A stretch of 64,000 nucleotides of DNA from Niabella aurantiaca DSM 17617 (GTDB lineage Bacteria; Bacteroidota; Bacteroidia; Chitinophagales; Chitinophagaceae): assembly GCF_000374125.1 (NCBI RefSeq), contig NZ_KB893648.1, positions 62,001 to 126,000 of the forward strand, given 5' to 3'. The first letter of the stretch is position 1, and every line of letters begins with the position of its first letter. The position numbers and the translations under genes are program-made. The notes beneath the pieces are model-generated. The model ran no database searches, had not been told where the DNA came from, and was given only the letters and a program-made list of their open reading frames with translations. Of this stretch, positions 46,338 to 64,000 are shown one piece after another.

Positions 46338-46702
46338 ACGGACATGCAATTCAGGACTACGGTATCTTTTTGAACGGCATATCCGGTACGCGGGAGCGGG
46401 GAGTAAGGCTAAATAGAAAAGTATATATCCAGTCAGTTTAAATTAAAAAACAATTCTGTATAAGTCCGGATGGTGACGGTACCGCCGGCCATATGGGGTG
46501 CCTGAAGACACGGATCCCGGCAGCCGGCATGGGCGGCTTTTTAAAACTTCTGTCCTGTGTTAAAAGGATCGTATGTTTTTGAACATTTTGGAATGATTCG
46601 ACAAAGGATTGAACAAAATATTCAACAGGTATTTATTTTCTTCGCAACTCCATTGGATCCCGGTGTTATTAATTTAGAAAATCATTCAATTTAGTTGTAT
46701 CG
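46338..46702. other. Intergenic region before the PUL
   Basis: 365 bp without a gene. It contains copy 1 of the 36-bp conserved motif (46586-46621) and a likely -7 region TATTTATTTTCTTCG at 46630-46644. Nothing else is recognised. Confidence 0.6.
46586..46621 (+). promoter_or_regulatory. PUL conserved 36-bp motif, copy 1
   Basis: Starts TTTTGGAATGATTCGACAAA and ends ATTGAACAAAATAT. It matches copy 2 at 31 of 36 positions and lies 81 bp before the GH43 start. A TATTTATTT box follows 8 bases downstream, with the same spacing as at copy 2. Confidence 0.78.
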
Positions 46703-48193
46703 ATGTTTGCTAAGCGTTTGTTATTATTGGTCCTTTTACTGACTCTTACGGTTCATTCAAATGCACAACAACTGGTGCTGCCCGGTGATCATCCCGATCC
46801 TTCGGTGGTTAAAATAGGCGATGAGTACTGGGCCGCAGGCACCACCTCAAACTGGTTCCCGGCGTTTACATTATATCGTTCGACAGACCTCATAAACTGG
46901 AAAGCTGCGGGGCATGTGTTTACAAAAATGCCTGGCTGGGCCGGCTATTATATGTGGGCTCCGGAAATTACCTATGACAACGGTAAAGTGTATGTTTATT
47001 ATACGGCAGGTAAAAAGGAGGGCGGCCTGTGCATCGCTGCAGCTGTTGCCGACCGGCCCGAAGGTCCGTATCGTGATCTTGGCCCGTTAATGTGTCAGAA
47101 AGATGGGTCGATTGATCCATTCGCTGTCCGCGATGAAAATGGTAAACTGCATATGATCTGGAAAGAGGATGGAAATAGCGTGGGGAAACCGACGCCGATC
47201 TGGATAGCGGAAATGAGCGAGGACCGGACATCCCTCCTTGGTGAAAAAAGAGAACTTTTCCGGGCGGATATACCCTGGGAACGGGGACTGGTCGAAGGGG
47301 TGTCTGTAATGCGGCATAAGGATTATTTTTATGCCTTCTATGCCGGTGCAGGATGTTGTGGAAGAACCTGTAGCTATGGTACAGGGGTGGCCCGGTCAAA
47401 AAATCTCTTTGGTCCCTGGGAGAAATATCCCGGCAACCCGGTGCTTACCGATAACAACGAATGGAAATGCCCGGGACACGGAACACCGGTTGAAAAAGAT
47501 GGCCGGTTTTATTTTCTGTATCATGCCTACAGCAGGAGCAGCAGCATATACGCCGGGCGGCAGGGCGTGTTGAACGAATTTGAATTTACGCCGGATGGGT
47601 GGCCGCGTTTCCTGAATAAAGGGGAAGATGCAGACCCGGTAAAAGCCGGGAGCAGCAGGGATGATTTTTCAACGAAAACATTGGCCGATAGCTGGCATTG
47701 GAGCATATTTCAGAATGTGAAATACACGGTTACCGGAAATACATTGAGATTGCATGCCCTGCCCGCTGCCTGTGGCGCCTATATTGGTCGGGCTGTTTTG
47801 ACCCCCGATTATGAATCGCAGGTAACATTGCTAAAAGCGTCTTCTTCAAAAGCCGGGCTTGCCCTGATCGGGGACGACAGGAATATGGTGGTGGCGACTG
47901 TTTATGAAAACAAGCTTCGTTTGATACAACTGAAGCAGGATAAAACGGAAGTGATTGCCGAAAAAACGATCCGCATGCCTCTACGGCTGGTGTTGAAAGT
48001 GAGGGTAACGAACAATACGCAGGCTACTTTTCTGTACAGTACAGATGGCAGGCGGTTTAATATCTTGAATGACCGGCCGGCGGATATCTCCTACCTGCCT
48101 CCATGGGACAGGGCCGTACGTGTGGGATTGGTTTCAAAAGGAACCGCCGGGGAAACCGCACTTTTTAAAAACTTTGTTTTGAAGAATCAATAG
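46703..48193 (+). CDS. GH43-family glycoside hydrolase
   Basis: 496 residues with signal peptide (MFAKRLLLLVLLLTLTVHSNAQ). A GH43 five-bladed propeller: catalytic base Asp32 in GDHPDPSV, pKa-modulating Asp138 in GSIDPF, and general acid Glu198 in LVEGVS. The C-terminal 170 residues form a beta-sandwich typical of a GH43 C2 domain. GH43 enzymes release arabinose or xylose from side chains, often arabinofuranose; the exact specificity cannot be fixed. It is first in the PUL, preceded by the 36-bp motif. Confidence 0.88.
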   Translation: MFAKRLLLLVLLLTLTVHSNAQQLVLPGDHPDPSVVKIGDEYWAAGTTSNWFPAFTLYRSTDLINWKAAGHVFTKMPGWAGYYMWAPEITYDNGKVYVYYTAGKKEGGLCIAAAVADRPEGPYRDLGPLMCQKDGSIDPFAVRDENGKLHMIWKEDGNSVGKPTPIWIAEMSEDRTSLLGEKRELFRADIPWERGLVEGVSVMRHKDYFYAFYAGAGCCGRTCSYGTGVARSKNLFGPWEKYPGNPVLTDNNEWKCPGHGTPVEKDGRFYFLYHAYSRSSSIYAGRQGVLNEFEFTPDGWPRFLNKGEDADPVKAGSSRDDFSTKTLADSWHWSIFQNVKYTVTGNTLRLHALPAACGAYIGRAVLTPDYESQVTLLKASSSKAGLALIGDDRNMVVATVYENKLRLIQLKQDKTEVIAEKTIRMPLRLVLKVRVTNNTQATFLYSTDGRRFNILNDRPADISYLPPWDRAVRVGLVSKGTAGETALFKNFVLKNQ

Positions 48194-48224
48194 CCCTTAT
48201 CGCATGGTTGCCTGCGGTCCTGTA

Positions 48225-48260
48225 TTTTGGAACGATTCGACAAAATGTTGAACAGAATAT
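48225..48260 (+). promoter_or_regulatory. PUL conserved 36-bp motif, copy 2
   Basis: Begins TTTTGGAACGATTCGACAAA and ends TTGAACAGAATAT, 214 bp before the lipoprotein that heads the susCD operon. A TATTTATTTCCTTTG box follows at 48269-48283. Confidence 0.8.
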
Positions 48261-48474
48261 ATCGGGTGTATTTATTTCCTTTGTTGTGATAATGAAGCTA
48301 ACTGAAATAGCTTGCCTTTTTGCTCAGACGTATTGTTTGTAAACTAAGTTTTATTTCAGCGCTTATTGGAAGGAAGAACTGTTTATCGGAATCAGAGAAA
48401 GATCCCAAAATATTGATTGCGGATACAGATCAGTTCTGCCATATAGTAATTTGTAAACACAAGATAACGCCGTT

Positions 48475-49848
48475 ATGAAATTTCAAAAGAGAATTAATTG
48501 CTTTTTCATTTTTTTCCTGTTTTTCGGCAGTTTGTTTTATGCCTGTAAAGACAAAGATCTGATCCGGAAGGACAATAATTATGATCCGGGAAAACCTACG
48601 GTATTTGCTGATTTTTCTCCGAAGAAAGGTGCGATCAGAACGCGCCTCTATATTTACGGGGACAATTTTGGTACCGATGTTTCCAAAATTCATGTTTATA
48701 TCGGCGACAGGGAGCTCAAAGTCGTCGGCGCCAATGGGAAGCAGATCTACTGTTGGGTGCCGGGCCAGACCAGTACCGGTCAGGTGCGGGTGGTCATAGA
48801 CGGCAACCCTGCTGCGGAGCATACGTTCACGGATCCGTTCACCTATACCAAAAGTACCACTGTGGGTACGCTGGTGGGCAATGTAGATGAGGATGGAAAG
48901 TCCGGGATTATAGACGGCACCTTTGAAGAAGCCCGGTTCGAATACCCGGCCTGGATCACCTACGAACCCGGAAGCAATGCATTGTTTGTAACGGAGCTGG
49001 ATAAGGCGGTAAGAAGGGTAGACCTGGCGGCACAAACCGTATCCACCCTTATTACCAACGGACAGGCCGGCTTTGGTAAGATGCAAACCACCATGCTTAG
49101 CCCGGACACGGACACGCTGTTCCTTGCAAACGATAACGGGAACCGGTCTACCCCAAACAAGGTGGCCCTTGCCTACTCCCTGCGTTCGGAAAACTACCGC
49201 CGCGTGCACCCGATCCTTTACGATGTTGGTGCTTTCAGCTGCGCCCCGCACCCCGTACATCATGACTTGTATTATAACAGCATGAATGGAACGATTATCA
49301 AGAAAGCTGTTGCCGATCCGGTAACAGGAGAGATGGTTCCGAAAAAACTGTTCAGCATAGGAGGCAATCTCAGCACACTGATCTTCTTTCACCCCACCGG
49401 CAATTATGCCTATATTATGGCACATAGCCGCATTTACAAGAGCATGTATAACTGGGAGCGGCGGGAGTTGGAACCGGCCATTATTTTTGCCGGCGGCGCT
49501 GCGGGTGATGTGGACGCCATTGGTACTTCAGCCAGAATGGGCAGGGCCTACCAGGGTGTGTTCGTCAAAAACCCCGCTTATGCCGGGCAGGCGGATGAAT
49601 ATGACCTTTACTTCTGCGATCAGAACAATCAGAGCATCCGCATTCTGTCGCCCACGGGGATGGTGACCACGTTTGCCGGCAAAGGCAGCCCTACACCAGA
49701 CGGCAGCAAGAAAGGCTATATCGATGGCGATCCAAGGCTGGAAGCCCGGTTTGCTGATCCTACCGGGATTGCTTATGACGAGGTCAATAAAATCTTTTAC
49801 ATCGCGGAGCGTGATAACAAACGCATCCGTACCATAACAGTGGAATAA
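48475..49848 (+). CDS. IPT/TIG and NHL-repeat surface lipoprotein
   Basis: 457 residues with a lipoprotein signal ending GSLFYAC (Cys24). After a short spacer comes an IPT/TIG immunoglobulin-like domain (PTVFADFSPKKGAIRTRLYIYGDNFGTD), then NHL-type six-bladed repeats (GTFEEARFEYPAWITYEPGSNALFVTE ... GLEARFADPTGIAYDEVNKIFYIAERDNKRIRTI). Such proteins precede susC in PULs and may bind glycan at the cell surface. The susC gene follows after 101 bp. Confidence 0.85.
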   Translation: MKFQKRINCFFIFFLFFGSLFYACKDKDLIRKDNNYDPGKPTVFADFSPKKGAIRTRLYIYGDNFGTDVSKIHVYIGDRELKVVGANGKQIYCWVPGQTSTGQVRVVIDGNPAAEHTFTDPFTYTKSTTVGTLVGNVDEDGKSGIIDGTFEEARFEYPAWITYEPGSNALFVTELDKAVRRVDLAAQTVSTLITNGQAGFGKMQTTMLSPDTDTLFLANDNGNRSTPNKVALAYSLRSENYRRVHPILYDVGAFSCAPHPVHHDLYYNSMNGTIIKKAVADPVTGEMVPKKLFSIGGNLSTLIFFHPTGNYAYIMAHSRIYKSMYNWERRELEPAIIFAGGAAGDVDAIGTSARMGRAYQGVFVKNPAYAGQADEYDLYFCDQNNQSIRILSPTGMVTTFAGKGSPTPDGSKKGYIDGDPRLEARFADPTGIAYDEVNKIFYIAERDNKRIRTITVE

Positions 49849-49949
49849 CCGCGTTCCTGTTTATCCTCATTTTTTAACCAATTGCTTTGTTTGCAGTAAG
49901 CACAACAGGCTTACGGCGAAGCGACCAGGCAGTTACTGAATACAGATTC

Positions 49950-52900
49950 ATGAAGAAAATTATTTTTTTACTGATAGGGATCATTGGAGCTACAGCCTGC
50001 TCTCTTGCACAGGACACAACCCAGGTACCCGTCACCGTTACCGGTACGGTTATCAATGAACAGCAGGAGCCGATGGTAGGTGTTTCCATCACCATCAAGG
50101 ACCAGCCCGGGCTGGGCGTAACCACCAACGAAAAAGGCGAATACAGCGTTCGTGCCAATAAATACCAGTGGCTTGTTTTTTCATTCACCGGCTATACGCC
50201 GCAGGAAGTTTTAATAAAAGACGGGTTAAAGCTGGATGTTGTGCTCAAGCTGGCAGAGAACAAAGCCATGGATGAGATCATCGTTACGGCATTGGGTACC
50301 CAGAAAAAAGCTACGGTAACCGGCGCCATCACCACGGTGGACCTCTCTACCCTTAAAACGCCTACTTCCAGCATTACCAATGCGCTTGCGGGAAATGTGT
50401 CGGGGGTGCTGGCCATGCAGTCGAGCGGACAGCCGGGCAGCAACTCCTCCGAGTTCTGGATCCGGGGCATCTCCACCTTTGGCGCGGGCACATCGGCCCT
50501 CATCATGGTGGATGGTTTTGAGCGGAGCCTTTCGGAAATAAACATAGAAGATATTGAAACCTTTACCGTGCTTAAAGATGCTTCCACAACGGCCATATAC
50601 GGTTCCCGCGGGGCAAACGGGGTGGTGCTCATTACCACCAAAAAAGGGAAAAGGGACCGGGTAAGCATCAATGGCAAGTATGAGGCATCCTACAATACCC
50701 GCACGTTCACACCTGATTTTGTAGACGGGTACACGTATGCCAGCCTCATGAACGAGGCGCGGACCACGCGCAACGAAGAAGCTTTTTATACACAGGAGGA
50801 CCTGACCCTGATCCGGAACCAGCTGGATCCGGACCTGTTCCCCAACATTAACTGGATGGATATGTTCCTGAAGCCCGGTGCTTTTACGCAACGTACCTCG
50901 CTCAATTTTGACGGCGGCGGCGCCCTGGCCCGCTATTTCGTATCGGGCAGCTATATCAACGAGGGTGGTATGTACGAAACCGATGAAAACCTGAAAAGCT
51001 ATAATACCAATGCCAATTATAAAAGATGGAATTACCGCGCCAATGTAGACATGAACCTTACCAAAACAACGCTTGTAAGAGTTGGAGTGAGCGGTTCTTT
51101 AGGCAAGCAAAACCTGCCGGGAGGTACGTACAGCGAGATCTGGGCTTCGCTGATGGGGCAAAATCCTATTTCCATTCCCATTAAATATTCAAACGGTAAA
51201 GTGGCTTCACGTGGCGGCGCCGAAAAGCAAAACCCCTGGGTGCTCATTACCCAGCAGGGCTATATCGAAAACTGGGAGAATAAGATACAGACGAACGTGA
51301 CCCTTGAGCAAAACCTGAAATTTATTACCAACGGTCTTCGCTTTGTGGGGCGGTTTGGTTACGATAACAATAACAAGAACTATATCCGCAGGATGAAATG
51401 GCCCGAAGGCTGGATCGCCGAACGGCAACGGGAATCCACCGGGGAGCTGCGGTTAAAACGCACGATCGCCGAGCAGTTGCTTACCCAGCGATCGGACGCC
51501 ACCAGCGACCGGTTTGAAACCATACAGGGAGAGCTGCACTACAATAAAAGCATCAGAAGCCATACATTAGGCGGGGTGCTGCAATATACCCAGGAAAAAA
51601 GGGTGAACACTTCCAATTATGGCGAGGACATCATGCAGGGCATCGAACGCCGCAACCAGCGCCTTGCAGGCCGGTTCACTTATGGCTACCAGTCGCGCTA
51701 TTTCTTTGACGTAAACTTCGGGTATAATGGATCCGAAAACTTTGCGCGGGGCCACCAGTTTGGCCTGTTCCCCGCTCTTTCCGGCGCCTGGAACGTGGCC
51801 GAGGAAAAATTTATCACGGAGCACCTGAAATGGATGGATATGTTCAAGATCCGCTATTCTTTTGGAAAGGTGGGGAACGATTATATGCCCATCCGCTTCC
51901 CTTACCTTGCTTCCTTTGCAACGGATACGGAGCGGGGCTATAACTGGGGCGATATCGAAAGCAGGAACGCATACTCCAGTCTTGCATACAGCGTGATCGC
52001 CTCCAATTCCATCACCTGGGAGGTAGCCACCAAGCATGATCTTGGCCTGGATTTTTCCTTTTTTGGCGATAAGTTTGGCGGTGCCCTCGATTATTTTCAT
52101 GAGCAGCGTGACGGCATTTACATGACCCGGGATTATATGCCGCCGAGCGTAGGCATCCTGCCGGATGCTGCCCCGCGCGCCAATGTGGGCTCTACCTTAT
52201 CCCAGGGGTTCGACGGGCAACTGAAGTTTTCACAACGGATCCATAAAGTGAATCTTACCGTGCGGAGCACAATGACCTACAGCCGTAACGAAATACTGGA
52301 GGCCGATGAGCAATACAGCAACTATCCTTACACCGCCCGCGCGGGCTACCGGGTAAACCAGAACAGGGGGCTTGTGGCCCTGGGACTTTTCAGAGACTAT
52401 GAGGATATCCGCAACAGTCCTACCCAGAACTTTGGAAGAACCGCCCCCGGCGATATTAAATACAAGGATATTAACGGCGATGGTACCATTGATAACAATG
52501 ATATTGTTCCCATAGGAGCTACCCGGTATCCGAACCTGGTTTATGGTTTTGGATTGTCCGCCAGCTGGAAAGGTTTTGATGCCAGTGTGCTGTTCCAGGG
52601 AGCCGGAAAGTCCTCCTTCTTCATAAATGGTTTCACGGTGTATCCCTTTAGCGAGGGCGACTGGGGCAATATCCTCACCGATGTCGTTGAATCGAACCGG
52701 TGGATCCTGGGTGTGAACGAAGATGTGAACGCCGTTTACCCCAGGCTGAGCTACGCCGGAAGCGCGAACAACTACCGTGCTTCTACCTACTGGCTGCGCG
52801 AAAGCTCATACATGCGGCTGAAAACCGTAGATGCCGGGTACACGTTTCCAAAAACGTTCACCAACAGGATGGGCGTGAAAACCATGCGCCTGTACTTCCT

Positions 52901-53021
52901 GGGTACCAACCTGCTTACGTTTTCCAAATTTAAAATGTGGGATCCTGAAATGAACAGCACAAACGGCCAGGCGTATCCGCTGGCGAAAACAGTCACCCTT
53001 GGATTAACTGTAAACCTATAA
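49950..53021 (+). CDS. SusC/RagA-type TonB-linked glycan importer
   Basis: About 1023 residues from ATG 49950, with signal peptide MKKIIFLLIGIIGATACSLAQ. N-terminal carboxypeptidase-like domain (VTVTGTVINEQQEPMVGVSITIKDQ), the TonB-box region and a plug (MDEIIVTALGTQKKATVTGAI ... IETFTVLKDASTTAIYGSRGANGVVLITTKKG), then a 22-stranded barrel. It imports oligosaccharides across the outer membrane with the SusD lipoprotein encoded 11 bp downstream. Length is normal for the family. Confidence 0.96.
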   Translation: MKKIIFLLIGIIGATACSLAQDTTQVPVTVTGTVINEQQEPMVGVSITIKDQPGLGVTTNEKGEYSVRANKYQWLVFSFTGYTPQEVLIKDGLKLDVVLKLAENKAMDEIIVTALGTQKKATVTGAITTVDLSTLKTPTSSITNALAGNVSGVLAMQSSGQPGSNSSEFWIRGISTFGAGTSALIMVDGFERSLSEINIEDIETFTVLKDASTTAIYGSRGANGVVLITTKKGKRDRVSINGKYEASYNTRTFTPDFVDGYTYASLMNEARTTRNEEAFYTQEDLTLIRNQLDPDLFPNINWMDMFLKPGAFTQRTSLNFDGGGALARYFVSGSYINEGGMYETDENLKSYNTNANYKRWNYRANVDMNLTKTTLVRVGVSGSLGKQNLPGGTYSEIWASLMGQNPISIPIKYSNGKVASRGGAEKQNPWVLITQQGYIENWENKIQTNVTLEQNLKFITNGLRFVGRFGYDNNNKNYIRRMKWPEGWIAERQRESTGELRLKRTIAEQLLTQRSDATSDRFETIQGELHYNKSIRSHTLGGVLQYTQEKRVNTSNYGEDIMQGIERRNQRLAGRFTYGYQSRYFFDVNFGYNGSENFARGHQFGLFPALSGAWNVAEEKFITEHLKWMDMFKIRYSFGKVGNDYMPIRFPYLASFATDTERGYNWGDIESRNAYSSLAYSVIASNSITWEVATKHDLGLDFSFFGDKFGGALDYFHEQRDGIYMTRDYMPPSVGILPDAAPRANVGSTLSQGFDGQLKFSQRIHKVNLTVRSTMTYSRNEILEADEQYSNYPYTARAGYRVNQNRGLVALGLFRDYEDIRNSPTQNFGRTAPGDIKYKDINGDGTIDNNDIVPIGATRYPNLVYGFGLSASWKGFDASVLFQGAGKSSFFINGFTVYPFSEGDWGNILTDVVESNRWILGVNEDVNAVYPRLSYAGSANNYRASTYWLRESSYMRLKTVDAGYTFPKTFTNRMGVKTMRLYFLGTNLLTFSKFKMWDPEMNSTNGQAYPLAKTVTLGLTVNL

Positions 53022-53032
53022 TTTAAAAGGCC

Positions 53033-55048
53033 ATGAATAAAAAACAAATCACAATAGGTATATTACTGACCGGTGTAATCGCATTTTTCAGCTCCTGCTC
53101 CAAGTATCTTGATGTGGAGCATTATTTTGATGACCGCCAGAGCGAGGAGCGTATCTTCAGGAGCAAGGATTATACGGAGCAGTGGCTCGGCACCTGCTAC
53201 AACCGGTTGCTGAACTATAACCTCGAGATCGGGCACCGGAACTACACGATCACCAATTATTCCGACGATATGTTCTTCAATGAATCGGGGGGGAATAATG
53301 GTCAGCAGTACCGGCAGTTCAAGTTCGGGGAATATGACTACACCTGGCTCCGGTGGTCCTGGGCGCAGGCCTATGACGGTATCCGGCAGGCTTCGGTAAT
53401 GCTCGCCAGCATGGGCGATGGCAGTACCTTCACAGAAAAAGAGGTGGCAGACTATAAAGCACAGGCGCGGTTCATACGGGCCTACCTGTACTGGCTCCTG
53501 CTGCGCAAATACGGCCCTGTACCCATTATGCCCGATAAAGGGGTAGACTATGATGCCGACTATGACGAGCTGTCCTACCCCCGTAACACCTACGATGAGG
53601 TGGCAACCTTTATCGCGGATGAAATGGCCCTTGCGGCAAAGGACCTCCCGCTAAAACGGGATAACCGCAACGTTGCCCGTCCTACGCGCGGTGCGGCACT
53701 GGCCACGCGCGCCAAAGCGCTGCTGTTTGCCGCCAGTCCGCTGGCAAACGGCAATACGGAAATGGCCGATTTTACCGATGATGAAGGCAGGGCTCTGATT
53801 GATCAGCAGTATAAGGAGGAAAAATGGGCAAAAGCGGCGGCCGCAGCGAAGGATGTTATGGACCTGAATGTGTACCGGCTGTACATCGCTGCCCCCAAGT
53901 TTAAAGGAACGGTTGACTATCCGGCCACTATCTTCCCTCCGTATAATCCCGAATACTCCGACAAGGACTTCCCGGATGGCTGGGCCAATGTGGATCCCTT
54001 TGAATCTTACCGGGCATTATTCAACGGAGACCTTTACGCTTCCGAAAACCCCGAAATGATTTTTACCCGGGGCGAGAACCAGACCGACGAAGATCATGGC
54101 GTCATTTCCCTGGCGAGGCACCAGATGCCTCAGATAGGGGGCGGCTACAACTGCCACGGCATTACCCTGAAGCAATGCGATGCCTATGCTATGAACGATG
54201 GCACGCCGTTTAACCGGCAGGAGATACGGAACAAATACGGCGCTGATATGTTCGTGCAGCCCGGCGAAGTGGACGATTTTAAACCGCTGCTGCCAAATGT
54301 ATGGAAGGAATTCGCCAACCGCGAGCCGCGTTTTTATGCTTCGGTAGCATTTAGTGGTGCGCTCTGGACCATGTCCAGCGCCGTGAACAACGCCGAGTCG
54401 GTTACCAACCAGCAGATCTTTTATTATCGCGGCGAAAATGAAGGTATGATCAATGGGGACCGCTGGCTGCCCACCGGCATCGGCATGATGAAATACGTAA
54501 ACCCCAAGGACAATGCCACCGGTAATGGCGGCAAAATTTTTCCCAAGGTGGAAATCACTATACGCTATGCAGACATCCTGCTCATGTATGCCGAGGCGCT
54601 CAACGAACTGGGTAGCGCTTACAGCATCCCCTCCTGGGATGGCAGCAGCACCCACGCCATATCCCGGAACATCGATGAAATGAAAAAAGCCGTTGGACAG
54701 GTGCGCATCCGTGCAGGCGTGCCCAACCATGATATGTCTGTGTACGGCAGCAAAGAAGAGCTGCGTAAAAAGATAAAACGTGAGCGCCAGATAGAGCTGC
54801 TGGGCGAAAACCAGCGTTACTATGACCTGCGGCGCTGGAAGGACGCTCCTGTAGAGGAGGCGGAGCAGATATACGGCTACAACGTGTTCATGACCCGGGA
54901 CCGGGCCGCAGATTTTTATACACCGGTACGGGTGCCGCTTTTGCAGACCACATTTTCCAGAAAAATGTATTTCTGGCCCATTGACTGGGACGAACTGCAA
55001 AAAAACAGGCGCATGACCCAGGCGCCGGGCTGGCCTTCTTTTGATTAA
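53033..55048 (+). CDS. SusD/RagB-type surface glycan-binding lipoprotein
   Basis: 671 residues with a lipoprotein signal ending FFSSC (Cys22). The TPR helical core is visible at AQARFIRAYLYWLLLRKYGPVPIM, and the C-terminal SusD signature at MKKAVGQVRIRAGV ... LRKKIKRERQIELLGENQRYYDLRRWKDA, ending with FSRKMYFWPIDWDEL. It covers the SusC barrel as a lid and binds the oligosaccharide. Pairs with the SusC gene upstream. Confidence 0.95.
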   Translation: MNKKQITIGILLTGVIAFFSSCSKYLDVEHYFDDRQSEERIFRSKDYTEQWLGTCYNRLLNYNLEIGHRNYTITNYSDDMFFNESGGNNGQQYRQFKFGEYDYTWLRWSWAQAYDGIRQASVMLASMGDGSTFTEKEVADYKAQARFIRAYLYWLLLRKYGPVPIMPDKGVDYDADYDELSYPRNTYDEVATFIADEMALAAKDLPLKRDNRNVARPTRGAALATRAKALLFAASPLANGNTEMADFTDDEGRALIDQQYKEEKWAKAAAAAKDVMDLNVYRLYIAAPKFKGTVDYPATIFPPYNPEYSDKDFPDGWANVDPFESYRALFNGDLYASENPEMIFTRGENQTDEDHGVISLARHQMPQIGGGYNCHGITLKQCDAYAMNDGTPFNRQEIRNKYGADMFVQPGEVDDFKPLLPNVWKEFANREPRFYASVAFSGALWTMSSAVNNAESVTNQQIFYYRGENEGMINGDRWLPTGIGMMKYVNPKDNATGNGGKIFPKVEITIRYADILLMYAEALNELGSAYSIPSWDGSSTHAISRNIDEMKKAVGQVRIRAGVPNHDMSVYGSKEELRKKIKRERQIELLGENQRYYDLRRWKDAPVEEAEQIYGYNVFMTRDRAADFYTPVRVPLLQTTFSRKMYFWPIDWDELQKNRRMTQAPGWPSFD

Positions 55049-55069
55049 TTATAAAATGTTTGATTTATT

Positions 55070-56071
55070 ATGAAAAGTTTACGCATATATGTCGCAATGG
55101 TAGCGCTGGGACTTGTTTTCAGCGCCTGCAACAATGAATGGGAAGGCGAGTTGTACACCCAGATGGTTTCGTTTAAAGCCCGGCTTGGCAGTGAGGGGGT
55201 TTCCGAGGTGTACCTCCGGTATAATAAGAACGGGGAAGTCGTATACAACCTGCCCCTTATAGTAAGCGGATCGCAACCCAGCCAGCAGGATCTGAATGTT
55301 AAAATAGAAGTGGACGATGATACGCTGAATATTTTTAACCGGGAAAAATATCAGTACCGCACCGATCTGTATTTTAAGCAGCTGCCCGGCCAGTTTTTTG
55401 AGTTGCCTTCACCTACCTGTTATATTCCCAGAGGCGCGCATACCGAAAACTATAAAATAAAGTTCAAGTTCAACAACCTGGACCTGGTAGAGCGCTGGGT
55501 GTTGCCCCTTACTATAAAGGACGATCCGGGATATATTTCCAATTACCGTAAAGGCTGGCGCAAAGCCTTGCTTTATGTAAAACCGTTCAACGATTATTCC
55601 GGCAATTACTCCTCCACCGCAATGAACGTATATCTTGACGGTGAGAACAAAAATCCGCTCGTGGCAAGTACGAGAACGGCATCGGTGGTAGATGAAAAAT
55701 CCGTTTTTTTCTATGCGGGTGTATTTGAGGAAAAATCGGAAGCGAGGGGGGATTATAAAATTGTTATGGAGTTCCAGGAACCCACTACGGAGCCCAACGG
55801 CAATAAGGTTGGGGCATTGAATGTGTATGCACCCAACAGCGCCATCAATTTTGAAATGCTGGGTCAGCCTACCTATCAGATCCGGGAGGTGGTAGATGCC
55901 ACCAAGAAATACCTGGTGACGCAATATTGCACGGTATATCTCAAATATAAATATGACGATATCAGCACCGTGCCCGGTACACCGATCCGGTACAGGGCCG
56001 AAGGCTCCATGACCATGGCGCGGCTGAAGAACACGCTGATACCGGATGAAGACCAGGCAATACAATGGTAA
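55070..56071 (+). CDS. DUF1735/DUF4973-like surface lipoprotein
   Basis: 333 residues with signal ending LVFSAC (Cys20). The mature sequence resembles the BT_3987-type N-terminal domain (LYTQMVSFKARLGSEGVSEVYLRYN ... VKIEVDDDTLNIFNREKY) and a DUF4973-like C-terminal part with a lipocalin-like beta fold (YKIVMEFQEPTTEPNG). Such proteins are encoded next to susD in pectin and arabinan PULs and are candidate surface glycan binders. It lies 21 bp after susD and overlaps in position with the leader of the next gene only outside the coding start. Confidence 0.8.
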   Translation: MKSLRIYVAMVALGLVFSACNNEWEGELYTQMVSFKARLGSEGVSEVYLRYNKNGEVVYNLPLIVSGSQPSQQDLNVKIEVDDDTLNIFNREKYQYRTDLYFKQLPGQFFELPSPTCYIPRGAHTENYKIKFKFNNLDLVERWVLPLTIKDDPGYISNYRKGWRKALLYVKPFNDYSGNYSSTAMNVYLDGENKNPLVASTRTASVVDEKSVFFYAGVFEEKSEARGDYKIVMEFQEPTTEPNGNKVGALNVYAPNSAINFEMLGQPTYQIREVVDATKKYLVTQYCTVYLKYKYDDISTVPGTPIRYRAEGSMTMARLKNTLIPDEDQAIQW

Positions 56072-56114
56072 TGTGCAGGGTCCCTTTGAAATAAAAATCA
56101 ATAAAAACATACAA

Positions 56115-57659
56115 ATGAAACGATCCATAGTAACTGTATGTATGCTCGGTTGTATATTACTAACAGGTGCCTGCAGGAAATCGCAGGAAGCGCCTTATTA
56201 TGATCCGATACCCCAGAAGCCGGAAGAGCCCGAAGTGCCTAAAGATGAATGGTCGGATTTTACCCTGGATAGTACATTTAGCAATCCCGTTATGCCGGGT
56301 GGCCCGGACCCTTGGGTGGTGCAGAAAAACGGCATCTATTACTATACCTATACACAGGGCAGCAGGTTGGTGATCCTGGAAACTAAAAATTTATCCGAGC
56401 TGGCATCGGCGCGCAGGCATGATGTATGGACACCTCCTGCAGGGATGCCTTACTCCAAAAATATCTGGGCGCCCGAACTGCATGAGATCGATGGCAAATG
56501 GTATTTTTATTTTGCCGGTGACAACGGGCAAAACGCCAATCACCGCATGTACGTGCTGGAAAATACGTCGCCGACTCCCGTTGAAGGTACCTGGGAGTTT
56601 AAAGGAAAACTGGCAGACCCCACAGATATGTGGGCTATAGACGGTACCATACTCACGTACAACGGTCAGCGGTATATGATCTGGTCGGGAGGTAATGCCG
56701 GTGCGGCGCCGCAAAGTATTTATATTGCGGCAATGAGCAATCCCTGGACCATCTCCGGTGAGAAGGTAATGATCTCAACACCCAATTTCGCATGGGAAAA
56801 AAATGGCAACGCCATCAATGAGGGGCCGCAAGTGCTCATTAACCCACAGGGCCGCGTATACCTTTTATATTCGGGCAGCGGCTACTGGTCAGACGGCTAT
56901 TGCCTTGGGATGCTGACGCTGCGGGATGGCGGCGACCCCATGAACCCGGGTGACTGGTCGAAGAAAGTGCACCCGGTTTTTTCTATGCGGTCGGAAAGCG
57001 GCGTGTTCGGACCCGGGCATAACGGCTTCTTCAAATCGCCCGACGGTAAAGAAGACTGGATCATCTATCATGCGCGCTCCGTTGCCAACCAGGGCGCTTC
57101 CGGAGGTCGCAGCCCGCGCATACAGCGTTTTACCTGGAACCCGGACGGGTCGCCAAATTTTGGCCTTCCTACAAGTATGACAACACCGCAAAAGCGGCCA
57201 TCCGGCGAGCCTTGGCGGTATATCCATTCCAAGACGAAGTGGTCCATCGCCGGCGTCAGCTCGGAGGAGCCCGTTAACGGCCGCCTGGCGTCCGGAATTA
57301 TTGACGACAACCTGGGTACCATCTGGATCACACGCTACTCCACACAGGCAACAGATTACCCCGATCACTGGGTTACGGTGGATATGGGAGCAACGGCTAC
57401 TGTGGACGGATTTATCATTTCCCAGAAAGACGGGGACCGTAAAATAAAAGAACTGGAGATCTTCGTTAGCAATGATAATGCTACCTGGGAAAGCATGGGA
57501 CTGTTCACGTTGAATGATGTCAACCTGCTGCGGCAATTCATCGATCTGCCGCAACGCAAGCAGTTCCGCTATTTTAAACTGGTGCCTAAGTCCGGCTATG
57601 ACAGCCAGCGGCAGCCCGGGTTGGCGGAGGTATCTGTGTTCAGACTTAAGGATGAGTGA
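56115..57659 (+). CDS. GH43-family hydrolase with F5/8-type C (CBM32-like) domain, lipoprotein
   Basis: About 514 residues from ATG 56115, lipoprotein signal ending LLTGAC (Cys20). The GH43 catalytic residues are Asp65 in GGPDPWV, Asp176 in AIDGTI, and Glu236 in INEGPQV, the order expected for alpha-L-arabinofuranosidases. The C-terminal 140 residues form a discoidin/F5/8C domain (DDNLGTIWITRYSTQATDYPDHWVTVDMG ... QFRYFKLVP). Surface or periplasmic. Next to the susCD pair, so it likely trims arabinofuranose side chains. Confidence 0.92.
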   Translation: MKRSIVTVCMLGCILLTGACRKSQEAPYYDPIPQKPEEPEVPKDEWSDFTLDSTFSNPVMPGGPDPWVVQKNGIYYYTYTQGSRLVILETKNLSELASARRHDVWTPPAGMPYSKNIWAPELHEIDGKWYFYFAGDNGQNANHRMYVLENTSPTPVEGTWEFKGKLADPTDMWAIDGTILTYNGQRYMIWSGGNAGAAPQSIYIAAMSNPWTISGEKVMISTPNFAWEKNGNAINEGPQVLINPQGRVYLLYSGSGYWSDGYCLGMLTLRDGGDPMNPGDWSKKVHPVFSMRSESGVFGPGHNGFFKSPDGKEDWIIYHARSVANQGASGGRSPRIQRFTWNPDGSPNFGLPTSMTTPQKRPSGEPWRYIHSKTKWSIAGVSSEEPVNGRLASGIIDDNLGTIWITRYSTQATDYPDHWVTVDMGATATVDGFIISQKDGDRKIKELEIFVSNDNATWESMGLFTLNDVNLLRQFIDLPQRKQFRYFKLVPKSGYDSQRQPGLAEVSVFRLKDE

Positions 57660-57676
57660 TTGGAAGACGGAGACAT

Positions 57677-58903
57677 ATGAAAAGAAGAACTTTTTTAAAA
57701 GGCGCAGGATTGTTAGCGGGCGGTACCCTCATCGGTGACTCGGGTGTTTTTGGGGGCAATAGGAAGTCCGTTATAAAAGTGGGGATCATCGGTTGCGGCG
57801 ACAGAGGCAGGGGAATGATGCACGTGATCCGGGAACTGAAGGATCAGTTCAGCATCACGGCAATATGTGATACACTTGATTTTCGATTGGAGAGCGCCCG
57901 TAAAATGCTAGGGACCGGTACTTTCCGTGCGTATAAAGATTACCGGAAACTGCTGGACGACAGCAATGTGGATGCGGTTGTGATCGCCGTGCCGCTTTAT
58001 TTGCATTATCCGGTTGCTGCAGACAGCTTGCAGGCGGGCAAGCACCTGTACCTCGAAAAAACGATGACCTTTGATATACCACAGGCATTAAAGCTGGTGA
58101 AATTATCTGAACAGCGGCGGGGACAGGTGCTGCAGGTCGGGCACCAGTACCGCTATTCACCACTGTATTACAAGGTAAAGGAATTCATAGATAAAGGCTG
58201 GCTGGGCAAGGTAAACCAGGTAGACTGCCGGTGGGACCGGAACGGGAACTGGCGGCGGCCGGTGCCGGACCCGTCCCTGGAGCGCCGGATCAACTGGCGG
58301 ATGTATAAAGCGTATTCAGGAGGATTGGTGGCCGAACTGCTGTCACACCAGATCGATTTTATCAATTGGATCTTCGATGCACACCCGACAGCCATTCAGG
58401 CAACGGGCGGTATTGATATTTTTAAAGACGGTCGCGAAACCTTTGACAATGTGCAGGTCATGTTCCGCTACCCGGAAGAAGGCATCATCGGTAATTTTGG
58501 AGCCACCTGCGGCAATGCTCATGACGGATACCTGTTTAAGATAAAGGGTACCAAAGGCACGATTTCCCTGTTGACTGACCGGGGTGTTTTTTTACCGGAG
58601 AAAAATACGGCTCCCGAAAATGAACTGATCGATGGGGTAACGGGGGCGTCAAAAATTGTATGGAGTAAAGAAGGGGGCGCTCCGATCCTGCCGGAGCCTA
58701 CAAAGGACGGCACCTGGTATGCATTGATCGATTTTTACAAAGCGGTAAGGTCCGGGCGGCTGCCGGACTCCAATGTTTATACTGGGGCAAAAACAGCCAT
58801 ATGTGTTGATCTGGCGAACCAGGCCCTATACGGTCAGAAAGTAATGCATTGGAGCAAAGAAGCCAATGCGGTGTTGGCGGCACCCGTAAATCAGCAGAAA
58901 TAA
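57677..58903 (+). CDS. Tat-exported Gfo/Idh/MocA-family oxidoreductase
   Basis: About 408 residues. ATG 57677 begins MKRRTFLKGAGLLAGGTLIG, a twin-arginine signal (RRTFLKG). The Rossmann dinucleotide fold starts at VGIIGCGDRGRGMMHV. Usual family marks follow: LYLEKTMTFDIPQA, where EKP is EKT, and VGHQYRYSPLY. The C-terminal domain has LSHQIDFINWIF. Members of this type, found in PULs, reduce or oxidise sugars or act as GH109-like NAD-dependent glycosidases. Begins 17 bp after the GH43. Confidence 0.88.
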   Translation: MKRRTFLKGAGLLAGGTLIGDSGVFGGNRKSVIKVGIIGCGDRGRGMMHVIRELKDQFSITAICDTLDFRLESARKMLGTGTFRAYKDYRKLLDDSNVDAVVIAVPLYLHYPVAADSLQAGKHLYLEKTMTFDIPQALKLVKLSEQRRGQVLQVGHQYRYSPLYYKVKEFIDKGWLGKVNQVDCRWDRNGNWRRPVPDPSLERRINWRMYKAYSGGLVAELLSHQIDFINWIFDAHPTAIQATGGIDIFKDGRETFDNVQVMFRYPEEGIIGNFGATCGNAHDGYLFKIKGTKGTISLLTDRGVFLPEKNTAPENELIDGVTGASKIVWSKEGGAPILPEPTKDGTWYALIDFYKAVRSGRLPDSNVYTGAKTAICVDLANQALYGQKVMHWSKEANAVLAAPVNQQK

Positions 58904-58986
58904 AAGCGTTTTTGCCGGAGCAATACAGTTTGATTCTTTCTTTATTGCTTTTATACAGATTTCGTTGTGAGAAACAGCGGTGGATG

Positions 58987-59022
58987 ATTTGGAACGATTC
59001 GGCAAAAGGTTGAATAACGTAT
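58987..59022 (+). promoter_or_regulatory. PUL conserved 36-bp motif, copy 3
   Basis: Begins ATTTGGAACGATTCGGCAAA and continues AGGTTGAATAACGTAT, 149 bp before the GH105 start. It shares the blocks TTTGGAA, GATTCG, CAAA and TTGAA with the other two copies at the same relative spacing. Confidence 0.72.
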
Positions 59023-59171
59023 TTAGAAAATATTCTGTTGCTTTAGACCCCGGAAAGGCGGGCACCGGCAGCGGATCTGTAAGGCCCGCTGATGAACCGG
59101 CCACTTGCAATCACCTTACCCGCTGCTCCGGGTTCATTAAAATTTAAACAGGATTCATAAAAAACAGTATC

Positions 59172-60278
59172 ATGTATAAAAAGCTATTTGTATCGCTGCT
59201 GGCGGTTTGCTCTTTTCAGTTTTTGTTCGCCCAGCAAAATCACCTGGCCGGCTTTCCAAAAAAGTTTGCGCCAAAAGAAGTGGGCAAACGCCTGGCCTAT
59301 CATTTCGTGGACGGCAGGCATGAGCTCTATGCCGGAAAGTATATTCATTATGCGGAAGTCTGCTCCTGGAACGGAGCTCTGGACTATGCATTGAAAACAA
59401 AAGACCGGAAGCTCATGAGGCTCTTGCAAGACAAGTTCGAACCGTTCTTTACAAGGGAAAAAGTATTATTGCCGCCCATGAATCATGTGGATTACAATAT
59501 GTTTGGCAGTCTTGCCTTAAAATTGTACCAGATAACTAAAGACGAGCGTTACCGGAAGATCGGCTTGGCCTACGCGGATGCACAGTGGACATTACCCGGC
59601 AATGCAAAGCGCCAGGAAAAAGACTGGGCGGATAAGGGGTACTCCTGGCAAACACGTATGTGGATCGACGATATGTATATGATCACTGTGGTGCAGAACG
59701 AAGCATATAAAGTAACCGGCGACCGTAAATATGTGGACCGGGCTGCAAAGGAAATGGTGCTTTATTTGGACGAATTGCAACGCCCCAACGGCCTTTTCTA
59801 TCACGCTCCGGATGTGCCCTACTACTGGGGCAGGGGCGATGGCTGGATGGCTGTGGGCATGGCGGACCTGCTGCGCGACCTTCCGCAAGACCATCCAAAC
59901 CGGCCGCGCATTATGGAAGGGTACCTGGCGATGATGAAAAGTCTGAAAAACTATCAGCGGCCCAATGGTATGTGGAACCAGCTGATCGATGAAGCGGATT
60001 TCTGGCCGGAAACCTCCGGAACAGCAATGTTCACCTACGCATTTATCAGGGGCGTTCAGCAGGGGTGGTTAGATGCTGCTGCATACGCTCCAGCAGCGCG
60101 GAAAGCATGGATGGCCATGGTTTCGTATATTGATGAACGGAATAACGTAACCGAGGTTTGCATCGGTACCGGCAAAAAGAATGACAAGCAGCATTATCAT
60201 AACCGTCCGCGCAACGCAGGCGATCTTCACGGACAGGCGCCTTACCTGTGGTGTGCGGCCGCGCTTATGGATAAATAA
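59172..60278 (+). CDS. GH105-family unsaturated uronyl hydrolase
   Basis: 368 residues with signal peptide (MYKKLFVSLLAVCSFQFLFAQ). An (alpha/alpha)6-barrel enzyme of the YteR/GH105 type: the motif TRMWIDDMYMITVVQ contains the acidic residue (Asp166/167) used for hydration of the unsaturated bond, followed by APDVPYYWGRGDGWMAVGMADLL and NQLIDEADFWPETSGTAMFTYAF. GH105 removes unsaturated uronic acids left by lyases on rhamnogalacturonan or ulvan fragments. A separate transcription unit preceded by motif copy 3. Confidence 0.92.
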   Translation: MYKKLFVSLLAVCSFQFLFAQQNHLAGFPKKFAPKEVGKRLAYHFVDGRHELYAGKYIHYAEVCSWNGALDYALKTKDRKLMRLLQDKFEPFFTREKVLLPPMNHVDYNMFGSLALKLYQITKDERYRKIGLAYADAQWTLPGNAKRQEKDWADKGYSWQTRMWIDDMYMITVVQNEAYKVTGDRKYVDRAAKEMVLYLDELQRPNGLFYHAPDVPYYWGRGDGWMAVGMADLLRDLPQDHPNRPRIMEGYLAMMKSLKNYQRPNGMWNQLIDEADFWPETSGTAMFTYAFIRGVQQGWLDAAAYAPAARKAWMAMVSYIDERNNVTEVCIGTGKKNDKQHYHNRPRNAGDLHGQAPYLWCAAALMDK

Positions 60279-60568: not shown

Positions 60569-62545
60569 ATGAAATATATTTTTATTTATTTGGCGCTCAT
60601 CATCCCTGCATGGGTGCGGGCCAATCGTATTGATGTGGACATCTGCGTGTATGGTGGTACTTCGGCAGGTGTGATTGCTGCTTACACAGCGGCGCTTCAT
60701 AAAAAAACAGTAGTGCTCATTGAGCCCGGACATCGGCTGGGAGGCTTGTCGTCCGGGGGACTGGGTTTTACGGACATCGGCAATAAATATGTGGTTACCG
60801 GCCTGGCCAGGGATTTTTACCGGCGCATCGGGAAACACTATGGAAGATTTGAGCAGTGGATATTTGAGCCCAAAGTGGCGCATGCTGTTTTTCTGGGCTA
60901 CATAAAAAGAGCCGGGTGCCGGGTATTATACGGCAAACGGTTAAACCGCGTTGATAAAGCGGGAACGGTGATCCGGTCGGTCTTGCTGGAAAACTCCGAT
61001 GGCTCTGCAGGCTCATTGCAGGTAAACGCCAGACAGTTTATTGATTGTTCTTATGAAGGAGACCTGATGGCGGGGGCCGGTGTAAGTTATACTACCGGGC
61101 GGGAATCCAATGACCGATATAAAGAAACGGTTAATGGCGTGCAGCTGAAAGAGAAGCACCAGTTCCCCGATGGGGTGGATCCCTATAAGATCCCGGGCAG
61201 GCCGGAGAGCGGGCTGCTATGGGGCATCAGCAATGAACCGTTGAAGGAAGCCGGCTCGGGAGACAAAAAGATACAGGCGTACAATTTCAGGATCTGCCTG
61301 AGTAACGACCCTGAAAACCGGCTGCCCATCGGGCGTCCTGTAAATTACGATTCGGCAAAATACGGGTTACTGCTGCGTTATCTTTCGGTGCGGCCGGTAA
61401 AGCAGCTTGGGCAGATCCTGAAGATGGACCGGATGCCGAACCGTAAAACCGATATCAACAACCAGGGCCCTTTTTCCACGGATATGATCGGGATGAATTA
61501 CGATTACCCGGATGGCGATTATGCCACAAGGGAGCGCATCTTTCAAAAGCATGTCGGTTATACGAAGGGACTGCTGTATTTTATCGGCAATGATCCGCGC
61601 ATGCCATTGCATTTGAGAAAACAAATGTTGCAGTGGGGATATCCAAAAGATGAATACCCGGAAACACAGCACTGGACCCCGCAATTGTATGTGCGTGAGG
61701 CAAGAAGAATGGAGGGCGCTTATGTAATGACGCAAGCCAATTGCCAGGCGAAAGAAGTGGTGGAAGACGGGATCGGGATGGCCGCTTATACCATGGATTC
61801 GCACAACACAGAAAGGATCGTAGTCAACGGCATGGTAAAGAACGAAGGCGATGTACAGCTAAAGGGTGTACAGCCATATCCTGTTTCTTACCGGGCGATC
61901 ACGCCCAATAAGAAAGAGTGTACGAATCTGCTGGTTCCGGTTTGCCTGTCGGCCAGCCATATCGCCTATGGCTCCATACGTATGGAACCGGTGTTTATGG
62001 TGCTGGCGCAGTCGGCAGCAACGGCCGCTTCCATGGCAATTGACGAAAAAAGAAGTGTGCAGATCGTAAATGTCGGGGCGCTGCAGCAACAACTGCGAGC
62101 GGATCCGTTGGCTGATGGAAGCACTGCTGAGATCCTTATAGATGATGTGGATGCGCAGATCATTACCGGGCAATGGGAAAGAAAAGGTGCCGGAGGATAT
62201 GGACCTTCTTTTCTATTGAATCGTACCGCACCGGCCGCCCGTGTCCGTTTTGAGCCGGACATCAAAAAGCCCGGCAGCTACGAGATCTATTTTTATTATC
62301 CGGGACTGCGCAATGCGTCGGATGTACTGCAAATTAAAGTATATGATGGAAAGCGTCCGGTATTGAAGACCATCCGGAGTGCAGAAGTAAAAGCAGCCGG
62401 CCAAACCTCAGGCGAATGGGTCGCGCTTGGGGAATATATATTGAATAAAGGGCGGAAAGCCTATGTTGAGCTGTCGAACCAAAATACGCACGGTGCTATT
62501 GCAGCAGATGCGGTATTGTTTGTGCCGGTGGACCAACGACAATAA
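60569..62545 (+). CDS. FAD-dependent oxidoreductase with C-terminal carbohydrate-binding-like domain
   Basis: 658 residues with signal peptide (MKYIFIYLALIIPAWVRA). Residues 20-530 are a FAD-dependent oxidoreductase of the FAD_oxidored type: the dinucleotide fold VDICVYGGTSAGVIAAYTAAL ... VLIEPGHRLGGLSSGGLGFTDIG and the conserved QFIDCSYEGDLMAGAGVSYTTGRES segment. The last 120 residues are a beta-sandwich like the xanthan lyase/golvesin C-terminal domain (AAARVRFEPDIKKPGSYEIYFYYPG). Frequent in PULs; substrate unknown. The next ORF begins 10 bp later. Confidence 0.85.
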   Translation: MKYIFIYLALIIPAWVRANRIDVDICVYGGTSAGVIAAYTAALHKKTVVLIEPGHRLGGLSSGGLGFTDIGNKYVVTGLARDFYRRIGKHYGRFEQWIFEPKVAHAVFLGYIKRAGCRVLYGKRLNRVDKAGTVIRSVLLENSDGSAGSLQVNARQFIDCSYEGDLMAGAGVSYTTGRESNDRYKETVNGVQLKEKHQFPDGVDPYKIPGRPESGLLWGISNEPLKEAGSGDKKIQAYNFRICLSNDPENRLPIGRPVNYDSAKYGLLLRYLSVRPVKQLGQILKMDRMPNRKTDINNQGPFSTDMIGMNYDYPDGDYATRERIFQKHVGYTKGLLYFIGNDPRMPLHLRKQMLQWGYPKDEYPETQHWTPQLYVREARRMEGAYVMTQANCQAKEVVEDGIGMAAYTMDSHNTERIVVNGMVKNEGDVQLKGVQPYPVSYRAITPNKKECTNLLVPVCLSASHIAYGSIRMEPVFMVLAQSAATAASMAIDEKRSVQIVNVGALQQQLRADPLADGSTAEILIDDVDAQIITGQWERKGAGGYGPSFLLNRTAPAARVRFEPDIKKPGSYEIYFYYPGLRNASDVLQIKVYDGKRPVLKTIRSAEVKAAGQTSGEWVALGEYILNKGRKAYVELSNQNTHGAIAADAVLFVPVDQRQ

Positions 62546-62555
62546 ATTTGTAGCA

Positions 62556-62922: not shown

Positions 62923-64000
62923 ATGTTAAGATCCAATCGGTTATTCTTTACGGTAATTGTTGCCCTGCAATGGCTGCAGGCAACTGCGCAGCAGGCCGGG
63001 CATGAAATGAACCCCTCTGCGGTGCGGTCCGTTTTTTTAAGTTCGGGACCTGCCTGGTATATGCAAAAAGCGAGTCAGGCTGCTTCCGGGGAAGTGGTCT
63101 CTTCTGTAGCGTATCAGCCGGATGGCTGGCTGCCGGCGATCGTGCCCGGAACGGTTTTGAACAGTTTGGTTCATAACAACGTATATCCGGACCCTTACTA
63201 TGGAGATAATAACCGCCGCTCACGCCGCCTGATCCCGGATCTGCAGGAGGCCGGCAGGGAGTTTTATCATTACTGGTTCAGGACAACCTTTCGAGTTCCT
63301 CCTTCACTAAAGGGTAAGCGGTTATGGCTAAAGCTGCATGGAATCAACTACCGGGCGGCCATTTGGCTGAACGGGCAAAAGCTGGGCACGATGGCCGGCA
63401 TGTTTGAGGCTGGGAATTTTGATATTACCAGTGTTGTAAACAGGACCGGCAACAACGTTTTGGCGGTGGATGTATTGCCGGTTGATGTTCCGGGCGACGT
63501 ATATCGAAATAGTAAAAAAAGAACCGGGGCCGTCGGTGAAAATAATAATGGCGGCGACGGCACGATCGGTAAAAATGTAACCATGCTGATGTCGGTTGGA
63601 TGGGATTTTACCGCACCGGACGGCATCCGCGACCGCAATACCGGCATCTGGAGGGATGTGGAGCTATACACTACCGGAAATGTGGTGTTGCAGGATCCTT
63701 TTGTACAAACCCGGCTACCTCTGCCGGATACCAGCTTTTCCCTGCAAACTGTGTCGGTGGAGGTGAAAAATACAACAGACACCCGGCAAAAAGGAACACT
63801 TACGGGGGTGATTGCGGGTACCAGCATCCGCTTTGGGACCGATGTGGAGCTGCAGTCGGGAGAGACCCGGCAGATCGTTTTTCGCCCGGATAATTATCCC
63901 CAGCTTAAAATGAAGCACCCTAAATTATGGTGGCCGCTTTATAAGGGAGATCAGCATCGGTACTCCCTGAAGTTGCAGTTCCGGCAGGGAAGGGAGGTGG
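62923..64000 (+). CDS. GH2-family glycoside hydrolase (partial)
   Basis: Starts at ATG 62923 with signal peptide MLRSNRLFFTVIVALQWLQ; in-frame ATGs at 62896 and 62899 are alternatives. About 359 residues are seen before the window ends. The N-terminal jelly-roll is typical of GH2 (YHYWFRTTFRVPPSLKGKRLWLKLHGINYRAAIWLNGQKLG) and followed by immunoglobulin-like domain sequence (VEVKNTTDTRQKGTLTGVI) as in exo-beta-glucosaminidase and mannosidase relatives. The catalytic TIM barrel lies beyond the window. Part of the PUL. Confidence 0.85.
   Translation, partial: MLRSNRLFFTVIVALQWLQATAQQAGHEMNPSAVRSVFLSSGPAWYMQKASQAASGEVVSSVAYQPDGWLPAIVPGTVLNSLVHNNVYPDPYYGDNNRRSRRLIPDLQEAGREFYHYWFRTTFRVPPSLKGKRLWLKLHGINYRAAIWLNGQKLGTMAGMFEAGNFDITSVVNRTGNNVLAVDVLPVDVPGDVYRNSKKRTGAVGENNNGGDGTIGKNVTMLMSVGWDFTAPDGIRDRNTGIWRDVELYTTGNVVLQDPFVQTRLPLPDTSFSLQTVSVEVKNTTDTRQKGTLTGVIAGTSIRFGTDVELQSGETRQIVFRPDNYPQLKMKHPKLWWPLYKGDQHRYSLKLQFRQGREV

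Follow-up and report, generated by a model that had tools for sequence, protein, structure and literature searches.

Three copies of a 58-bp promoter-like unit and a candidate split hybrid two-component regulator at a polysaccharide utilization locus of Niabella aurantiaca

What switches on a polysaccharide utilization locus (PUL) in which the same stretch of DNA recurs before three separate transcription units? This question is raised by a 64,000-nt window of Niabella aurantiaca DSM 17617 (contig NZ_KB893648.1, positions 62,001 to 126,000; plain coordinates below are those of the window), in which three stretches of 58 bp, nearly identical to one another, resemble switchable promoters in a carbohydrate-degradation gene cluster of a soil-type bacterium. 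They precede a gene for a GH43 enzyme, an operon encoding an IPT domain protein together with SusC- and SusD-like proteins (IPT-susCD operon), and a GH105-type gene. Each copy is probably an activator-dependent promoter that would be bound by a nearby AraC-type response regulator (RR) acting with its partner kinase, and used by sigma-A at a TTnCTTTG box. The sites, their spacing, rarity and placement, the protein domains, the co-occurrence and co-location with the regulator and the variants by clade were computed directly.

The first-pass annotation of this DNA had described three conserved motif copies. All three were recovered in the 64-kb window (at 46587, 48226 and 58988) with 0 mismatches to the pattern TTTGGAAYGATTCGRCAAANNNTTGAA, which found no match at ≤3 mismatches across 100 shuffles. 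In the entire genome of 5,927,438 bases, only the three window copies matched this pattern at ≤3 mismatches, and the reversed pattern used as a control matched nowhere. A matrix of 58 columns, for which 24 sites (the three window copies among them) served as the training set, gave copies 1, 2 and 3 scores of 84.0, 74.6 and 66.8, respectively; the runner-up in the window scored 0.4, and the scan yielded no further motif in the window. A trained model detected four sites in the genome at E ≤1e-5, the fourth of which (G000:C1:1041075, E 2.8e-9) is located upstream of a sulfatase gene on a contig other than that of the PUL. The genome-wide scan suggested in the first-pass annotation hence did not find the motif to be abundant before unrelated genes and left that reading standing, while the sulfatase gene is an additional member of the kind it had expected the motif to reveal. 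The promoter motif is real and specific.

The motif copies are part of a 58-bp unit composed of TTTGGAAYGATTCGACAAAA, TTGAAYA and then TTnCTTTG at a fixed distance, copy 3 included. Unit 1, before the GH43 gene, spans 46587..46644 on the plus strand, with the putative -7 box TTTCTTCG at 46637-46644 and 59 nt from the end of the box to the ATG. Unit 2, before the IPT-susCD operon (48226..48283, plus strand), has TTCCTTTG at 48276-48283 and a distance of 192 nt, and unit 3, before the GH105-type gene (58988..59045, plus strand), has TTGCTTTA at 59038-59045 and a distance of 127 nt. A TATTTATTT box had been noted earlier at equal distance behind copies 1 and 2; it is present there, and copy 3 carries TATTCTGTT at the same distance. 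The TTnCTTTG box, located 7 bases beyond the TATTTATTT-type box with equal spacing in all three copies, is better conserved. In an alignment of 25 sites, column 29 is A in 25/25, followed by TATTT and by TTnCTTTG at a fixed distance, and positions T52, T55 and T56 are invariant in an alignment of 31 sites. Since columns 28-58 lie outside the search pattern, their conservation was not imposed by the search; shared descent contributes to it.

Published descriptions place the Bacteroidota sigma-A box TAnnTTTG at -12 to -5 (PMC9723704) and describe a promoter with TAnnTTTG at -7 and TTTG near -33, the latter element being given for B. fragilis and not identifiable in F. johnsoniae (PMC7366714). 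The TTnCTTTG box resembles this promoter, differing in its second base, which is T instead of A in nearly all sites, and in lacking the -33 TTTG. If TTnCTTTG is set at -12 to -5, TTGAA comes to lie at -40 to -36, and the sequence found in the -33 region is YARA, not TTTG. Owing to this position, TTGAA is more likely to belong to an activator site than to be the -33 element as which it had been annotated, and we abandon that assignment. Pairing TTGAA as -33 with TATTTATTT as -7 was rejected; columns 44-50 are less conserved overall than columns 51-58. We read the 58-bp unit as a putative activator site plus a putative -7 box, and the comparison of sites supports the initial view that the left part would be bound by an activator.

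One might also take the long motif as the recognition sequence of an alternative, extracytoplasmic function (ECF) sigma factor, as it contains GGAAC-like letters of the type known from ECF -35 boxes. ECF -35/-10 pairs are spaced by about 16-17 bp, and the 43 bp between GGAA and TTnCTTTG are too far for such a pair. As TTnCTTTG moreover resembles the sigma-A -7 box described in PMC9723704 and PMC7366714, we regard an ECF promoter as highly improbable.

A candidate regulator pair is located 2.9 kb beyond the window end, convergent to the PUL. It consists of an AraC-type RR of 254 aa with the Pfam domains Response_reg and HTH_18 (G000:C24:128872-129636, L111:2872-3636, minus strand) and, directly upstream, a membrane histidine kinase of 1065 aa with Reg_prop, Y_Y_Y, HisKA and HATPase_c domains (G000:C24:129638-132835, L111:3638-6835, minus strand). 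The alternative assignment of the 254-aa protein as a LytTR regulator was ruled out by its Pfam domains. Kinase stop and RR start codon ATG are separated by a single base and lie in different frames, so that a read-through stop does not account for the two genes; the gap is 1 base in 8/9 loci and 4 bases in the ninth. The receiver of the RR contains CHIP in its consensus form, and PMC11253607 describes the S/CHIP receiver motif as a hallmark of hybrid two-component systems (HTCSs). The best full-length solved relative of the RR is an HTCS protein (PDB 12aw, residues 3-248), and the regulator of the orthologous PUL in Bacteroides xylanisolvens is a single HTCS of 1327 aa. With Bacteroides HTCSs the pair shares the Reg_prop propeller, Y_Y_Y, HisKA, HATPase_c, the CHIP receiver, the AraC-type helix-turn-helix and the position at a presumed target PUL, but these parts form one polypeptide there and are divided here between two genes in different frames. 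The pair would operate in the manner of an HTCS and departs from that class on one defining point, not being a single polypeptide. The most fitting name for it is split HTCS, with two genes in place of the one-protein sensor that is well known from gut bacteria. AraC-type and HTCS proteins had been among the regulators considered in the initial annotation, and the best candidate now combines the two: the pair is of the HTCS type, and its output domain is of the AraC type.

In the mechanism we propose, the left block and TTGAAYA would constitute the binding site of the AraC-type RR. The propeller/Y_Y_Y sensor of the kinase would detect a polysaccharide breakdown product and phosphorylate the RR, which would then occupy about -62 to -30, a stretch that adjoins and covers the -33 region, and bring sigma-A RNA polymerase to TTnCTTTG. 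Binding, phosphorylation, activation and the nature of the ligand are what we infer. The predicted targets of the RR are the GH43 gene, the operon from the IPT gene through susCD and a second GH43 gene to an oxidoreductase gene, the GH105-type gene with the genes behind it, and the distant sulfatase gene. The pair might instead bind the motif as a repressor that is relieved by the signal, given that some HTCSs deviating from the consensus contact motif have been proposed to repress (PMC11253607). This RR, however, keeps the consensus CHIP letters, and its site is located upstream of the -7 box of a promoter without the -33 TTTG, as expected for an activator-dependent promoter, making repression very unlikely.

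The proposed activator and the motif occur together across genomes. In a related set of 59 genomes, the own genome included (45 RR and 94 motif candidates scored per genome, all RR candidates for G005 and G011; thresholds of E ≤1e-90 for the RR and E ≤1e-5 for the motif, set after the lists had been seen), the RR was detected in 10 genomes, each with one copy 85-100% identical and three with a second copy at 63-66%. The pattern built from the three window copies alone, which was not trained on relatives, matched at ≤3 mismatches in 10/10 genomes of the RR clade versus 1/49 others (G005), giving sites in 11 genomes and 30 matches, compared with one for the reversed pattern. The trained model (R1) contained training sites from all ten RR genomes, G005 and G063, and its hits in G060, G062, G067, G011 and G409 were obtained without one. 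At E ≤1e-5 it found the motif in 10/10 RR-clade genomes versus 2/49 others (G005 and G011; Fisher p ~1e-9, kinship ignored) and within the own genus in 9/9 versus 2/8 (p 0.002, kinship ignored). Among 394 other genomes of the class (14 motif candidates scored per genome), one genome beyond this set, G409, had the motif, and no other RR was found at E ≤1e-100 across 395 class genomes, own included (6 RR candidates scored per genome, all of them for G409). The full promoter units of G011 and G409, which lack the RR clade, are located at L208:9310 and L219:9430. G005 has the motif at L119:10815-11325, and the regulator clade was not found there; since its GH88/105 target is truncated (109/420 residues), the site looks like a relict.

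As a test of prediction, ten genomes with susC relatives were searched first by RR and then by the model. An RR of 75-87% identity was found in Paraflavitalea pollutisoli, Pedobacter BAL39, Pararcticibacter amylolyticus, a metagenome-assembled genome (MAG) of the Sphingobacteriales and N. hibiscisoli (G012), and the motif was found in 5/5 (best E 3.1e-8 to 1.8e-10). Pararcticibacter and N. hibiscisoli contributed training sites; the E values obtained without training sites were 1.9e-9 for Paraflavitalea pollutisoli, 3.1e-8 for Pedobacter BAL39 and 2.1e-9 for the Sphingobacteriales MAG. In genomes without the RR clade the best motif E values were 1.5e-4 (P. metabolipauper), 0.03 (A. eurypsychrophilus), 0.006 (S. 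pedocola) and 0.016 (B. xylanisolvens), of which the nearly full-length match in P. metabolipauper could represent a weak site. No motif was found near nine paralogous split pairs (RR 50-55% identical; L138-L146), where the best score was -3.3.

Motif and regulator are also close to each other on the chromosome. In 13/14 RR genomes (G068 has the RR coordinates of G012, and the two are counted once), a site at E ≤1e-5 is located ≤13 kb from the RR on the same contig. In many genomes it lies ~3.3 kb from the RR in the gap before the kinase gene, reading away from the kinase and, where the next gene is identifiable, towards a GH43 or susC-like gene. Among 50 distinct sites with a score >24 (the window site at 48226, identical to an L124 site, is excluded), 48 are intergenic and the remaining two overlap a kinase ORF at its 5′ end as called; 40/50 are located ≤500 bp from a same-strand ORF of ≥150 aa by crude longest-frame calls, 8 are further off and 2 are at a locus end. 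The genes behind the sites encode GH43, GH88/105, susC-like, IPT-susCD and sulfatase proteins, as well as an oxidoreductase (L216) and a protein without a Pfam family (L211:3660). In G015, one site also precedes a sulfatase gene, and the IPT-susCD operon is located on another contig. The IPT-susCD loci inspected in Niabella have a site before the IPT gene in 8/8 cases (scores 42-84). By this comparison, the initial proposal that the GH43 gene, the IPT-susCD operon and the GH105-type gene belong to one regulon holds in Niabella, and the predicted regulon of N. aurantiaca would extend to the distant sulfatase gene. Outside this genus, the sites precede genes other than this operon in the vicinity of the RR; in Pedobacter and Pararcticibacter these include a second susC operon (54-56%; L210, L217). 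In three related genomes, motif-like sites (L131:18271, L133:14327, L125:14368) were also noticed at the RR gene's 3′ end, pointing into the gene in antisense orientation.

The motif further varies with the regulator clade, each site being attributed to an RR clade according to its genome and its proximity to the RR. Column 5 is A in 13/13 RR75 sites and G in 23/30 RR1 sites, columns 5-6 are AG in 10/13 RR75 sites, and columns 13-14 are GC in 3/3 RR2 sites and in 0/43 others. The helix-turn-helix parts of the RRs also differ by clade, which fits co-evolution of motif and protein and is no proof of contacts. Regarding internal structure, 4.4%, 1.5% and 1.3% of the column shuffles for three overlapping sets attained the score of a direct repeat at an offset of 21 alone; with all offsets allowed, the best offset was 12 bp in two sets (2.4% and 5.1%) and 21 bp in one (23%). 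A palindromic reading was discarded: with all centres allowed an inverted repeat is not significant, its best score being attained in 29%, 45% and 58% of the column shuffles for three sets. Three Niabella genomes (L123, L127, L130) possess a second split pair, 63-66% identical to the own one, with a variant of its own, TTTGAAACGATTGCACAAAA, before the kinase gene, which in L123 and L130 reads into a GH43 gene. A further variant, TTTGGAATGATTNGTNAAATAGTTGAATAG, is common to three Niabella genomes (L122:9767, L126:10850, L009), and its L122 copy lies near a susC-like gene.

Several observations weigh against activation of these sites by the split pair. Column 5 is A in 7/30 RR1 sites, and a direct repeat of 21 bp, as would be expected for HTCS sites, does not reach significance with all offsets allowed. 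The RR1 of G012 is the exception to the co-location, with weak sites only nearby (E 2.7e-4 and 0.003), and S. athyrii, the RR of which is 65% identical, has a motif match of E 0.099 only, directly before its kinase gene. No motif precedes the kinase gene in N. aurantiaca itself (L111), where there is no sign of autoregulation; motif-like left parts without a -7 box are found before the kinase in G004, G006 and G010. Full motifs occur in G011 and G409, in which the best RRs are 54% and 59% identical. Finally, orthologous IPT-susCD operons outside Niabella (susC 53-82% identical) have no full inward-reading site in 9/9 loci (L032-L039, L042), whether the RR clade is present or not, and G060, G062, G063 and G067 have the RR and other sites, yet an IPT-susCD operon without a full site. 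The best scores at these outside operons were 12.1 in Paraflavitalea (left-block-like) and 34.2 in Pararcticibacter (opposite strand). Since the full site is missing there, the regulon differs between genera.

Some of these points would suit an unlinked regulator, such as another AraC-type protein, that binds the motif while the kinase-RR pair is merely co-inherited with the PUL. The genome of N. aurantiaca has 51 HTH_18 matches including the RR, one of the other 50 falling below the family cut-off, and G011 and G409 retain the motif without the RR clade. However, in other genera the motif is found close to the RR despite different neighbouring genes and an orthologous susC operon that lacks it, suggesting that the motif follows the RR and not the operon. 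Motif variants that track the RR clade and the nine paralogous split pairs without a motif nearby likewise argue against an unlinked regulator, which we consider unlikely, and for the split pair as the protein that would bind the motif.

How this pair might have arisen was addressed with a tree of 55 response regulators, the rows of which were chosen by us and labelled split or fused from open-frame lengths, and which contains several long branches. The motif clade comprises 18 rows, all labelled split (support 99/96), and is nested in a larger clade of mostly split rows (37 split, 8 fused; support 100/98), which itself lies among fused HTCSs. The tree requires three or more changes between split and fused, and it fits one split followed by two re-fusions as well as three splits. 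It is conceivable, though we lean slightly against it, that an HTCS lineage of the Chitinophagales/Sphingobacteriales broke up into a kinase in the membrane and an untethered RR, which could act in trans on scattered PUL pieces and be re-targeted between genera while its DNA site drifted with the helix-turn-helix.

The PUL genes given here, up to the window end, are encoded on the plus strand. Behind unit 1 lies the GH43 gene with a GH43_C2 domain (46703..48193, Pfam E 9.8e-66). The operon behind unit 2, which we delimited by spacing, is opened by the gene for the IPT/TIG domain protein (48475..49848, Pfam TIG), followed by genes for a SusC-like TonB-dependent transporter (49887..53021, start codon uncertain; Pfam Plug and CarbopepD_reg_2), a SusD-like protein (53033..55048, Pfam SusD_RagB), a DUF4973/BT_3044-like protein (55070..56071, Pfam) and a GH43 enzyme with an F5/8 type C domain (56046..57659, Pfam), and is closed by a GFO/IDH/MocA oxidoreductase gene (57656..58903, Pfam). 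Unit 3 is followed by the gene for a GH88/GH105-type unsaturated glycuronyl hydrolase (59172..60278, Pfam GH88 E 1.3e-61) and, 3′ of it, by a gene for an FAD-dependent oxidoreductase with Golvesin_C (60569..62545) that likely belongs to the same PUL. A GH2-family gene (62941..64000) continues beyond the window end and is succeeded by a GH130-family gene and then by the convergent regulator pair (G000:C24:128872-132835). A GDSL-type esterase gene (62463-62873) is likely decayed: at 136 aa it is short next to its relatives of 254 aa in L116 and L121, and it matches these mainly at both ends. A few kb before the PUL, there is a phage-integrase-family gene on the minus strand (40982-41524).

HTCS control of PULs is already known, and the split form with its motif and regulon is new; literature searches, mostly short of full text, recognised no prior description of a split HTCS or of a Niabella PUL motif. 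The HTCS DNA motifs reported by Ravcheev et al. 2013 (PMC3878776) are direct repeats with an average of 21 bp between sites, found, as here, upstream of PUL operons in regulons of few operons, some of them distant. In contrast to these, the repeat in our motif is not significant, CGACAAAA in its middle is well conserved, the distance of the site to a -7-like box is fixed, and the hosts are Chitinophagales and Sphingobacteriales. SusR-type regulators, as described in PMC3878776, also control PUL operons in Bacteroidota, but their predicted sites are separated by 67 or 77 bp, and their DNA-binding domain is a different one.

A candidate regulator, its site and its regulon can now be named for a PUL in a branch of the Bacteroidota for which our literature searches found no such work, and the search model finds promoters across genera. 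As each regulator clade is tied to a motif variant, recognition by AraC-type domains becomes testable by swaps. A further testable question is whether a regulator set free by the splitting of an HTCS can serve genes at a distance. If an HTCS lineage did break up as outlined above, its members would lend themselves as a series in which to read AraC-type specificity and to ask what is gained when an HTCS is no longer tethered to the membrane.

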